A program made the translations under genes and the position numbers. Shown one piece after another: positions 31,571 through 34,515 of a stretch of DNA of 34,515 bases (position 1 is the first letter of the stretch; every line of letters starts with the position of its first letter). The notes under the pieces are model-generated. The model made no database searches. It worked only from the letters and a program-made list of their open reading frames with translations, and had not been told where the DNA came from. Source of the DNA: a bacterium (GTDB lineage: Bacteria > Patescibacteriota > Minisyncoccia > JAHIHE01 > DAOWLE01); contig DAOWLE010000021.1 in the NCBI GenBank assembly GCA_030643545.1, positions 1 through 34,515 on the forward strand, written 5' to 3'.

Positions 31571-31619
31571 ATTTATACAATAACTAAAAAACCCCGCAAA
31601 AATAAGCGAGGTTTTTTTA
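31571..31619. terminator. Right direct repeat; bidirectional terminator between DUF3175 and 16S rRNA
   Basis: ACCCCGC..GCGAGGT with T-runs on both strands (GGTTTTTTT on +, GGGGTTTTTT on -). It can end both the DUF3175 transcript and the convergent rRNA transcript. The 49-base unit is 45/49 identical to 28923-28971. Confidence 0.7.
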
Positions 31620-31664
31620 AATTACAATCTTGTGTGGTTGTCCTAATTGATTATAGAGACAAAA

Positions 31665-31712
31665 CAATGTTTTGCCTCTGCCTGTTTAGAAAACAGGCGT
31701 CGACACCCCATC
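31665..31712 (-). other. Hairpins in the 16S rRNA 3' flank
   Basis: Downstream of the 16S 3' end the transcript can form GCCTGTTTTCTAAACAGGC and GAGGCAAAACATTGTTTTGTCTC. They may be processing signals or part of the terminator. No tRNA and no 23S rRNA sequence is present before the + strand genes begin. Confidence 0.45.
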
Positions 31713-31830
31713 AGATAATATAAATCGAGATTTAAAATTTATCTAATAGAAAGGAGGTGATCCATCCCCAGGTTCTCCTAGGGATGCCTTGTTACGACTT
31801 CACCCTGATCACCGGTCTTACCTTAGAATC

Positions 31831-31893
31831 ATCCTCATTTTTATAAACCAATTAATTTTATATTATAAAAAACTGATTTACAAAAGAGAGGAT
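31831..31893 (-). other. Helix-44 extension in 16S rRNA
   Basis: Between the conserved ACCATCCTC and GAGGATGAT strands (which pair) there are about 45 extra A/T-rich bases. TTTTGTAAATCAGTT (31885-31871) and AATTGGTTTATAAAA (31853-31839) can form 15 pairs including wobbles, so helix 44 is lengthened by a hairpin of about 50 bases. Confidence 0.6.
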
Positions 31894-32160
31894 GGTGCTT
31901 CGGGTATTACCGACTCTCTTGGTGTGACGGGCGGTGAGTACAAGACCTGAGAACGTATTCACCGTGACATGGCTGATTCACGATTACTAGCGATTCCAGC
32001 TTCATGAGGTCGAGTTGCAGACCTCAATCCGAACTAAGACCGGTTTTGATGGGATTGGCTCCGCCTTACGGCTTAGCAACCCTTTGTACCGATCATTGTA
32101 GCATGTGTGTAGCCCAGGGCGTCAAGGGCCATGCGGATTTGGCGTCATCCCCGCCTTCCT

Positions 32161-32474
32161 CCCAGCCCTTTTGGCATTATCTTCGTAGACTATTTTTTAA
32201 ACGTTTCTTAAGATGTCCGATCACGCTGCCGTGATGCTTAAGTTTATTTTCACGAATCAAAGCGTCTTTTTTACTGCGATAAATTTCGCAATATATTAAA
32301 TTAAAAGGCGCGTAAGATTTTGTTGATAACACTTTTTTCTGATTGTGTTCATTAAATCTTCTTTTAATATTATCAGTGCTTCCAACATAAATAAAATCTT
32401 TTAGAGTGCTTTGAATAAGATAAACATAGTACATATTATTTCATTAAAAAAATAATAATGCCAAAAGGGCTGGG
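32161..32474 (-). other. GIY-YIG-bearing intervening sequence in 16S helix-40 region
   Basis: The arms ATAATGCCAAAAGGGCTGGG (32455-32474) and CCCAGCCCTTTTGGCATTAT (32161-32180) are exact 20-bp inverted copies on top of the helix whose loop is normally about nine bases (E. coli about 1165-1172). The loop of 274 bases is almost entirely the GIY-YIG ORF. The ORF stop codon lies inside the arm. No group I core or second ORF was seen. Confidence 0.8.
32177..32434 (-). CDS. GIY-YIG nuclease encoded inside 16S rRNA
   Basis: The 85-residue protein is a single GIY-YIG domain of the small UPF0213/YhbQ-like type. The motif is split as VYLIQS (4-9) and FIYVGSTDNIKRRFNEHN (14-31), with the catalytic Arg in KRRFNEH and the Glu in ALIRENKLKHHG near 62. 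It ends KKRLKNSLRR. It has no DNA-binding extension, unlike most homing endonucleases of this fold. It is in the same orientation as the rRNA, with no Shine-Dalgarno motif before the ATG. It may be a homing-type or DNA-processing nuclease carried by the insertion, or a passenger. Confidence 0.88.
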   Translation of the reverse strand: MYYVYLIQSTLKDFIYVGSTDNIKRRFNEHNQKKVLSTKSYAPFNLIYCEIYRSKKDALIRENKLKHHGSVIGHLKKRLKNSLRR

Positions 32475-32546
32475 CGGTCTCCTGTGACAAATATAACACA
32501 GGATAGGGGTTGCGCTCGTTTCCCAACTTAATGGAACGCCTCACGG

Positions 32547-32577
<31 letters not shown>

Positions 32578-32654
32578 CATCGAGTTCCTTGCGGCACTTC
32601 CTCTTTTCGGAGGAATTCTCGAGATTTCAAACCCTGGTAAGGTTCCGCGCTTAT

Positions 32655-32688
<34 letters not shown>

Positions 32689-33240
32689 AGGTCCCCGTCT
32701 ATTCCTTTGAGTTTTAAGCTTGCGCTCGTACTTCCCAGGCGGGACACTTATCGCGTTAGCTTCGACACTTGAAGGGTCGACACTTCAAATATCTAGTGTC
32801 CATCGTTTACGGCGTGGTATACAAGGGTATCTAATCCTTTTTTATGCCCACGCTTTCGTCTCTCAGCGTCAGATATGTTCCAGCTGAATGCCTTCGCCTT
32901 TGGTGTTCCCCATGATATCAACGGATTTCACCCCTACTTCATGAGTTCCATCAGCCTCTGACAATCTCTAGTCTAAACGTTTCAGATGCGGTTTCAAAGT
33001 TGAGCTCTGAAATTTAACACCTGACTATTTAAACCGCCTACAGACGCTTTACGCCCAATGATTCCGGATAACGCTCGAGGTCTCTGTATTACCGCTGCTG
33101 CTGGCACAGAGTTAGCAACCTCTTATTCCTTGGATAAGCTCAAATTAGCAGCTGATTTGTAATTGTTAAATTATATTTTTGGAGAAAAAATAGCGGGAGA
33201 CAAAAGAAAATTTATTTATCTCCCTTTTTCTTTGCTTCTT

Positions 33241-33519
33241 TTATCTTTTTAATATTATCTTTGTTTTCTTGTTCCCAAAGCTTTTCCTGAAAGTTACTCT
33301 TTTCCAATCTTTTGCTTGATATCTTTTTACGAATTCTATTCTTACTTTTAGTTCTGGAAAATCATAGCCAATCAATTCATTTGGTAATACAATAGAAAAA
33401 CTCGAAGAAAATATATTAGTCGTATTCATTAATTTTTCGTCTACATATTTTTCTATTTTATCTACTGTTTTTTTCTGTTGATCATTTGGATTTTCCAACT
33501 CTTCTGGTCCTAAAGCCAT
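33241..33519 (-). CDS. Hypothetical protein in the 16S insertion
   Basis: Starting at ATG 33519 (MALGPEELENPNDQQKK) the product has 92 residues: an acidic helix followed by beta-rich, basic C-terminus (VRIEFVKRYQAKDWKRVTF, KKTKIILKR). AAAGGAG lies about nine bases before this ATG, which decides the start over an upstream in-frame ATG at 33585 that has no ribosome site. The family is not recognised. It is last in the insertion operon. Confidence 0.6.
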   Translation of the reverse strand: MALGPEELENPNDQQKKTVDKIEKYVDEKLMNTTNIFSSSFSIVLPNELIGYDFPELKVRIEFVKRYQAKDWKRVTFRKSFGNKKTKIILKR

Positions 33520-33536
33520 TTTTCTTTTTTCTCCTT

Positions 33537-33635
33537 TTAATATATCAATTCTTTTGCTTCCAGCGCCGCGAGATGCACAGGGCATAATTGTTCACCATTT
33601 TCAGTTTGCCATACTGCTTTCAGGACATTCTTCAT
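33537..33635 (-). CDS. Possible 32-residue protein in the 16S insertion
   Basis: ATG 33635 gives MKNVLKAVWQTENGEQLCPV and continues LAALEAKELIY to a stop at 33537, 17 bases before the next ATG. An overlapping shorter ORF (33651-33601, MDVEEYEECPESSMAN) has the better-placed AAGGA ribosome site. Either one, or a frameshifted combination of both, fills the gap between the NADAR gene and the last gene of the insertion. No family is recognised. Confidence 0.3.
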   Translation of the reverse strand: MKNVLKAVWQTENGEQLCPVHLAALEAKELIY

Positions 33636-33663
33636 ATTCTTCTACATCCATTTTTCCTTTTTA

Positions 33664-34122
33664 TTATTTCCTTAACTCTTCTCTAATCTCATCTCTCACC
33701 TGCATCAATAATCTACCCAACCAATTTTCTCCTTTTTCACCCCAGAACATATCAGTCGGACTATCCTCGTGAATAACCGCATCGCCGGTTGCAAGTAATT
33801 TTTTTCGTAATTCTGGATTTTTAAATTTCGCTCTAAGCCCCTTTAGCATTACATCTACTTTCTTTGAATTCCAGTCATCAACCAATTCTTTTCCTTCTCT
33901 TAATGAACGACCTGCAATCATTGCTAAATATGGACTCGGCGCACTATTAATCCAACTTATTATGTATCCGCCTATGAAGCTTTTATCTTGTGCTTTCTGG
34001 GATTGATACCAATGCTCATTTGTCTGGTACGAAACACCATCAACCGTCTGCCAGCATCTCCAGAAATTACTAAGCCATCCATACTCCTTTCTCCTAAAAT
34101 AGAAATTTATTTCTTCTTCCAT
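33664..34122 (-). CDS. NADAR-family (YbiA-like) protein inside 16S rRNA
   Basis: NADAR proteins are N-glycosidases: YbiA-type members act on riboflavin intermediates, and others remove ADP-ribose from guanine in DNA as antitoxins to DarT-type toxins. The family pattern is clear: INFYFRRKEYGWLSNFW near the N-terminus, TNEHWYQSQKA at about 34-44, AMIAGRSLREGKELVDDW, VMLKGLRAKFKNPELRKKLL, and ATGDAVIHEDSPTDMFWG near the C-terminus. At 152 residues it is complete. AAGGA lies four bases before the ATG, and the gene follows the zinc-ribbon gene by nine bases. Its target is unknown. Confidence 0.87.
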   Translation of the reverse strand: MEEEINFYFRRKEYGWLSNFWRCWQTVDGVSYQTNEHWYQSQKAQDKSFIGGYIISWINSAPSPYLAMIAGRSLREGKELVDDWNSKKVDVMLKGLRAKFKNPELRKKLLATGDAVIHEDSPTDMFWGEKGENWLGRLLMQVRDEIREELRK

Positions 34123-34131
34123 TTTTCCTTT

Positions 34132-34365
34132 TTACAACTCCTCTTTTTTTACAAACTTTCCTAATGCTGCGTCGTAGTAAACAATATTGTCTTCCTCGTC
34201 AAACTGAAAATAAAAATGTCCACCTTTTTCATTATGCACTCTTCCGCACTCGTCACAAACAAATATTTCCTTTATTCCAAACATATATTCTATTTTAGAA
34301 ACATCCATCGTTTTTAACGCTTCTAATTCTAAGTGTCCTTTACATTTTTTATCCGAACATTTCAT
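34132..34365 (-). CDS. Small zinc-ribbon-like protein in the 16S insertion
   Basis: The 77-residue product has two metal-binding pairs, CSDKKC (3-8) and CDEC (37-40), followed by an acidic, aromatic C-terminus (HFYFQFDEEDNIVYYDAAL). This looks like a single zinc ribbon. AGGAGG lies about 12 bases before the ATG. It is the first gene after the 16S helix arm and is translated in the direction of the rRNA. Family and function are not recognised; a nucleic-acid or protein adaptor role would be typical of such folds. Confidence 0.6.
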   Translation of the reverse strand: MKCSDKKCKGHLELEALKTMDVSKIEYMFGIKEIFVCDECGRVHNEKGGHFYFQFDEEDNIVYYDAALGKFVKKEEL

Positions 34366-34515
34366 TTTTTTCTTTTTTCCTCCTTATTTTTTTAATTCTG
34401 CCATCCTTTACGGAAATGACAGAAAAGTGATTTTTACAATCACAAAACAGCCACTAATTTTGTTGTCCAAGAAAAGAACTTTACACCCCGAAGGGCTTCT
34501 TCGTTCACGCGGCGT

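Follow-up and report, generated by a model that had tools for sequence, protein, structure and literature searches.

Why does the gene for a small GIY-YIG nuclease lie inside a 16S rRNA gene, enclosed by a perfect inverted repeat, and does the insert belong to the ribosomal RNA or has it moved there? The window analysed here is a whole contig of 34.5 kb (34,515 nucleotides), from a genome of 845 kb in 45 contigs. Genome sizes, and named relatives labelled Patescibacteria, make the Candidate Phyla Radiation (CPR) its most likely phylum. The original prediction took the insert to be an intervening sequence carrying a nuclease gene. From the sequence comparisons described below, the insert is with a probability of about 0.7 one copy of a small mobile element of the insertion sequence kind, of which the sole protein is a minimal GIY-YIG nuclease. 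The plan of such an element would be a length of about 300 bp, perfect or near-perfect inverted repeat ends of 12–22 bp, and a GIY-YIG gene of 83–90 aa. In this family the stop codon of the gene lies in or beside the 3' arm.

The insertion in helix 40 of the 16S rRNA gene

The features of the window are listed in Table 1. A repeat search found the two arms to be the only long near-perfect inverted pair in the region, and they are perfect reverse complements over 20 bp. The 16S rRNA gene, on the minus strand, matches RF00177 with 933.6 bits, and its flanks on either side of the insert are 85–89% identical to native relatives. In relatives of the same order that lack the insertion the site reads GCCCAGGTTAACTGGGAGG or GCCCGGGTTAACCGGGAGG, which places the insert in the hairpin loop of helix 40. 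The window reads GCCCAG-[CCCTTTTGGCATTAT ... ATAATGCCAAAAGGG]-CTGGGAGG here, therefore the tip of the helix has been replaced. The match to native 16S breaks at 32472 and 32163 (BLAST), and the outermost 5 bp of the arms (CCCAG/CTGGG) may be native stem, the remainder of the arm being new. The predicted energy of the arm duplex in the RNA is -43.1 kcal/mol, and the whole 361 nt piece folds 5.6 sd better than shuffled sequences (z -5.6). The perfect stem at helix 40 and the stop codon within the arm, both part of the original prediction, are borne out, and the comparison with uninserted relatives that it had proposed has located the insertion.

Table 1. Features of the 16S rRNA region of the window
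Feature	Position	Strand	Description
16S rRNA gene, 3' part	31750..33144	-	Interrupted by the element; RF00177, BLAST to native 16S
Small AT-rich hairpin extension	31820..31885		In 16S helix 44
Whole element	32161..32474	-	About 310 bp, in the apical loop of 16S helix 40; native relatives L031, L033, L035
3' arm	32161..32180	-	ATAATGCCAAAAGGGCTGGG in RNA sense; overlaps the ORF stop codon; repeat search
GIY-YIG nuclease ORF, 85 aa	32177..32434	-	ATG start; TAA stop within the 3' arm; sense to 16S
5' arm	32455..32474	-	CCCAGCCCTTTTGGCATTAT in RNA sense; exact reverse complement; outer 5 bp coincide with native helix 40 stem CCCAG; repeat search
Second insertion	33145..34468	-	About 1.3 kb, in 16S helix 17
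16S rRNA gene, resumption	34469..34515	-	Native positions 367–413; contig end falls inside the gene

Covariance models of group I and group II introns do not match positions 31600–34515, either at the gathering score or at E≤10, which agrees with the earlier statement that no group I core is visible. A comparable search does detect group I introns at two other loci (L012 and L093). Neither a second near-copy of the element nor an ORF-less hairpin with the window type of arm was found in the same genome. Its other two GIY-YIG ORFs (L003, C43, and L004, C25) are also near repeats: one lies between inverted GTCATTCCTGC-type repeats and the other adjoins GC-rich palindromic repeats.

The last 47 bases of the contig match native 16S positions 367–413, therefore the 1.3 kb before them is another insertion. 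It contains, all in sense orientation, a gene of 152 aa with a NADAR domain (PF08719, 101.6 bits), a zinc-ribbon-like ORF of 77 aa, and an ORF of 114 aa without known family. Its ends pair in a long stem (-47.1 kcal/mol, against -25.0 for shuffled sequences, sd 4.3) and it has no match to the intron models. Because it has no GIY-YIG gene, it is treated apart from the element.

The GIY-YIG protein

The ORF between the arms matches PF01541 (GIY-YIG) with 65.7 bits, the cut-off being 22.6. The predicted protein carries the conserved Tyr, Tyr, Gly, Arg, His, and Glu of the GIY-YIG domain, and in an alignment of ten members Y5, Y16, G18, R26, H30, and E62 are invariant. The nearest solved structures in the PDB are UPF0213/YhbQ proteins (1zg2, E 2e-12), in keeping with the minimal YhbQ-like nuclease that had been proposed. 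The likeness to these proteins is in domain family and length; unlike them, the protein is carried between inverted repeats on an apparently mobile unit and has a conserved basic C-terminal motif, around KLKHHGS..GHLKKRLKNSL in the alignment. Scans against Pfam and NCBIfam identified no transposase family (DDE, HUH, tyrosine, or serine) in the sole ORF between the arms, and no Y1 (REP-associated tyrosine) transposase, the only ORF there being that of the GIY-YIG protein. Where dS is measurable (not saturated), pairs of these ORFs have dN/dS of 0.06–0.14. The ORF is therefore under purifying selection, with the protein kept functional.

Relatives and their inverted repeats

Relatives of the window protein were found in Omnitrophota, Elusimicrobia, and Patescibacteria by protein search of bacterial genomes; a search for plasmid and viral homologues found none. 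The closest, which are from Omnitrophota and Elusimicrobia and 55–64% identical, occupy other sites and have CCCCGCCCTTTTG arms, and in close relatives the inverted repeats hug the ORF. The shared arm sequence is present as ACCCCGCCCTTTTGGC in L007, L008, and L010, as GCCCCGCCCTTTTGAGA in L009, and as CCCAGCCCTTTTGGC in the window, at sites as unlike as intergenic DNA, a tRNA gene, and the 16S gene. Arm-bearing ORFs outside rRNA are intergenic at L007, L008, and L010 and are located at tRNA genes at L009 and L011. The original prediction had itself set the occurrence of the ORF with such flanks outside rRNA against its reading, and as a purely ribosomal intervening sequence the insert does not hold up.

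A survey profile built from ten relatives has matches at E≤1e-10 in 253 of 379 genomes from the phylum, with up to 14 matches per genome, and 110 of the best places were fetched with their flanks. Arms were scored by aligning the left flank to the reverse complement of the right flank, with flanks re-paired between loci as the control. In 133 loci, a set biased to top hits, 55% have an arm score of at least 12 (1.1% of re-paired flanks) and 26% a score of at least 16 (0.2%). The arms fall into motif families (CCCCGCACCTTTT, CCCCTCACC, CCCCGTTAGAG, ACCCTGTTAAATA, and CCCCGTAGAGAAATTT), which the protein clades largely match; targets match the clades less.

The protein tree is weakly resolved, with 87 columns and 60 open forks, therefore reliance is placed on a permutation test and on close pairs. 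For pairs in different target classes, arm similarity is correlated with protein identity (r=0.20, permutation sd 0.045; no value as high in 2000 permutations). The sister proteins L051, in RNase P, and L053, just beyond the 3' end of 16S, share CCCGCACCTTTTAGCC. Seven target labels placed on the tree require 51 changes, where the minimum is 6 and the shuffled mean 67.8. Targets are therefore partly inherited but often switched. Arm sequence, as far as these comparisons go, appears to follow the protein more than the target, and the arms probably belong to a mobile element for which rRNA is one of several landing sites.

Target sites

The 78 elements with an arm score of at least 12 and a protein score of at least 70 bits comprise 21 within 16S, 23S, or RNase P RNA, 4 at tRNA genes, 23 at the start codon of the downstream gene (assigned by an automatic rule), and 30 elsewhere. 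The 16S sites, with helices named from the flanking sequence, are h6 (L012, L063, L084, L123), h17 (L093, L122), h40 (the window), and h44 (L060). The 23S sites are L013, L098, L121, L138, and L159. Most of these assignments to rRNA or RNase P are confirmed by Rfam; L159, L041, L043, and L077 were assigned via flanking sequence. Nearly all of the arm-bearing insertions in rRNA and RNase P RNA (20 of 21) are in sense orientation.

Insertions in RNase P RNA are always immediately 5' of AGGAAAGTCC. The usual form of native P3 in uninserted genomes is CCCC-loop-GGGG with AGGAAAGTCC after it, a stem that the CCCC...GGGG ends of the element extend exactly. Extension of a native stem by the arms is seen both for h40 and for RNase P P3. 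Among the RNase P genes sampled, L196 and L199 have apparent ORF-less arm remnants in P3 (CCCCGCCCTTT... and CCCCTCACCCTTT...).

The copies at start codons often overlap the downstream start as ATGA, and in several cases this overlap of the GIY-YIG stop and the downstream start suggests translational coupling. Judged by eye, the starts of the downstream proteins resemble YchF, ScpA, SMC, ThrRS, NusB, and a sugar nucleotidyltransferase. Elements that end at the start codons of conserved genes include L113–L118, L140, L141, and L165, among others.

A related arrangement is common among the relatives that lack arms: they run straight into an intact tRNA of the same orientation, and the ORF is preceded by a truncated copy of that tRNA, exact for up to 45 nt. 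A GC-rich hairpin interrupts this copy in or beside the D-, anticodon, or T-loop (L056, L061, L065, L088, L090, L124, L130, L134, L145, L146, and others). More distant GIY-YIG relatives from Alphaproteobacteria, Bacteroidota, and Acidobacteria (L016, L017, L027, and L028) are also at most about 120 bp from tRNA or tmRNA genes.

Evidence for mobility

Two copies 181 kb apart on one contig (L092 and L101) have 312 bp in common at 89% identity. The homology begins and stops exactly at the arms and the flanks are unrelated. The inverted repeats travel with the gene, as they do in insertion sequences. With a tolerance of up to 5 nt in the position of the borders, direct repeats of at least 4 nt are present at 47% of 30 intergenic copies, against 6.6% of controls, and direct repeats of at least 6 nt at 23%, against 1.7%. 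Examples are GGGG-TTGAC-CCCGCAC...GTGCGGGG-TTGAC (L046 and L101) and GGG-TTTAC...GGG-TTTAC (L083). The copy at the tRNA gene of L011 is arranged as GGG-CCCGTAG-CCCCTCAC...GTGAGGGG-CCCGTAG, in which the tRNA regains its 5' end from the GGG of the element itself.

Hairpins of the CCCGTTAGAG type without an ORF are present in 7 of 360 genomes, with up to 4 per genome, and the reversed pattern was found in none. Flanking duplications of at least 5 nt accompany 4 of 11 ORF-less hairpins with the CCCGTTAGAG tip, compared with 0 of 110 control pairings. In Omnitrophota (L234, L235, L007, L008, L157, L162) there are both ORF-bearing and ORF-less hairpins with window-type tips, in a common larger repeat context (...GAATTTGA / TTCAATTCGCAGACGG...). 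ORF-less CCCCGCACC hairpins were also considered as derivatives of the element. They are present in 13 of 360 genomes, and the reversed pattern in 2. Among the 13 there is no target duplication of at least 4 nt, and T-runs follow several; most are therefore probably terminators, and they were left out of the evidence.

Target duplication is a feature of many intergenic relatives and some ORF-less hairpins. It is absent from the window copy and from all 21 arm-bearing copies in rRNA and RNase P RNA, in which the native loop is replaced instead of duplicated. These copies must therefore be assumed to have entered by another route or to have been trimmed later; perhaps a working RNA arises only from those that have lost the extra bases. 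As judged from the arms, proteins, and flanks compared, the unit of arms and ORF has moved between sites, between genes, and between phyla.

Alternative explanations

In a classic rRNA intervening sequence, the insert would be an extension of the helix 40 stem-loop that is removed by RNase III, the arms would be features of the rRNA, and the nuclease gene would have been captured by chance. The perfect stem in the RNA sense, the position in a hairpin loop, and the absence of an intron core are all as expected of this, and to that extent the original reading stands: the insert is closed by a stem and has no intron core. It is not merely an rRNA insert, however, since similar arms enclose such ORFs in intergenic DNA, tRNAs, RNase P RNA, and other phyla, and go with the protein more than with the site. 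As the whole story this explanation is largely refuted by the arm-bearing relatives outside rRNA, and it is improbable. An assembly artefact or a chimera in the genome bin is suggested by the contig end inside the 16S gene, but is scarcely credible given the native identity of the 16S flanks on both sides and the same architecture in rRNA or RNase P genes of more than 10 independent genomes.

The least unlikely of the alternatives, yet still an unlikely one, is a GIY-YIG homing element, with a conserved rRNA site as its recognition sequence and break repair as the means by which it enters empty alleles of that site. Homing endonuclease profiles do match, weakly (TIGR01453 at 25.6 bits, below its cut-off, and phrog_7168), and small sub-clades of close relatives do have a common target, such as tRNA 5' ends (L011/L040/L045), RNase P (L041/L043), and 16S h6 (L084/L123). 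Against this, target duplications are not expected from homing, and in place of one conserved target the close relatives occupy unrelated genes, being found in 16S, tRNA, RNase P, and intergenic DNA. With targets that change so often over the tree, simple homing does not serve as the general model. A little less probable again is that the hairpins are non-autonomous and are moved by an unrelated transposase, for example of the REP-associated Y1 type, with the GIY-YIG protein as cargo or in another role. ORF-less hairpins with duplications exist, and REP/RAYT systems are a precedent. The coupling of arm and protein sequences, and the purifying selection on the sole gene between the arms, argue against this.

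Comparison with known systems

Tsurumaki et al. 2024 (PMC11270868) reported GIY-YIG genes in CPR rRNA insertions that are never in group I or group II introns, are scattered, and seem to be outside homing, and left these elements unclassified. The window insert belongs to this set. The parts of that article that were searched make no mention of arms, target duplications, ORF-less copies, or sites in genes for RNase P RNA, tRNA, and proteins. Nor did the literature searched, which excluded preprints and most subscription papers, describe such arms or duplications, forms without the ORF, or targets other than rRNA.

Like the bacterial 23S intervening sequences that are excised by RNase III and encode the IVS protein, the window insert is closed by a stem at an rRNA hairpin loop and has its ORF in the loop. 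It differs from these in being in 16S, in having a GIY-YIG protein in place of the IVS protein, and in arms that appear to be mobile and occur outside rRNA. REP palindromes and their RAYTs are likewise dispersed, some with a nuclease gene and some lacking one, but those nucleases are of the Y1/HUH type, whereas here the protein is GIY-YIG, the ORF is inside the palindrome, and many intergenic copies have short target duplications. With insertion sequences and MITEs the element has in common terminal inverted repeats, ORF-less derivatives, a single gene and, at many intergenic copies, short target duplications. Unlike these, it has no DDE, HUH, tyrosine, or serine transposase, is only about 300 bp, and occupies RNA loops and start codons. 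By analogy, the element seems to behave like an insertion sequence with its MITEs, and partly like REP/RAYT. As its sole protein is a GIY-YIG nuclease, it does not have the transposase of either family. Since hairpin-ended genes of this kind recur at such varied sites in many uncultured bacteria, they would seem to form a mobile element family not described before, and the window copy not to be a one-off ribosomal insert.

Possible mechanism and significance

The mobile element favoured here could move as follows. The nuclease would nick or cut the target and the element would be copied into the gap through its ends. The paired arms would then let the host RNA fold around the insert, so that insertions in rRNA and RNase P RNA would be tolerated and the ORF could be expressed from the promoter of the host RNA. 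A bolder reading, held tentatively and at slightly less than even odds, is that these elements are a new class of bacterial transposon. An 85 aa GIY-YIG nuclease would be the sole mobility protein, acting on inverted repeat ends of 12–22 bp, making target duplications of about 5 bp, and spawning ORF-less hairpins. Such a transposon would colonise start codons and the loops of rRNA, RNase P RNA, and tRNA genes because its ends, by pairing with each other, keep the host gene functional.

The arms and target duplications give the unexplained GIY-YIG genes of CPR rRNA, as reported in 2024, a model of mobility that can be tested at the bench. The copies at tRNA genes and start codons indicate that the same element fits very different host genes. 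Pairing of the ends, by which the RNA stays folded, is a possible answer to how rRNA and RNase P genes tolerate insertions in reduced genomes. Should the nuclease prove sufficient to move the element, it would represent a transposase class outside those known, and the elements would be among the smallest autonomous mobile elements.
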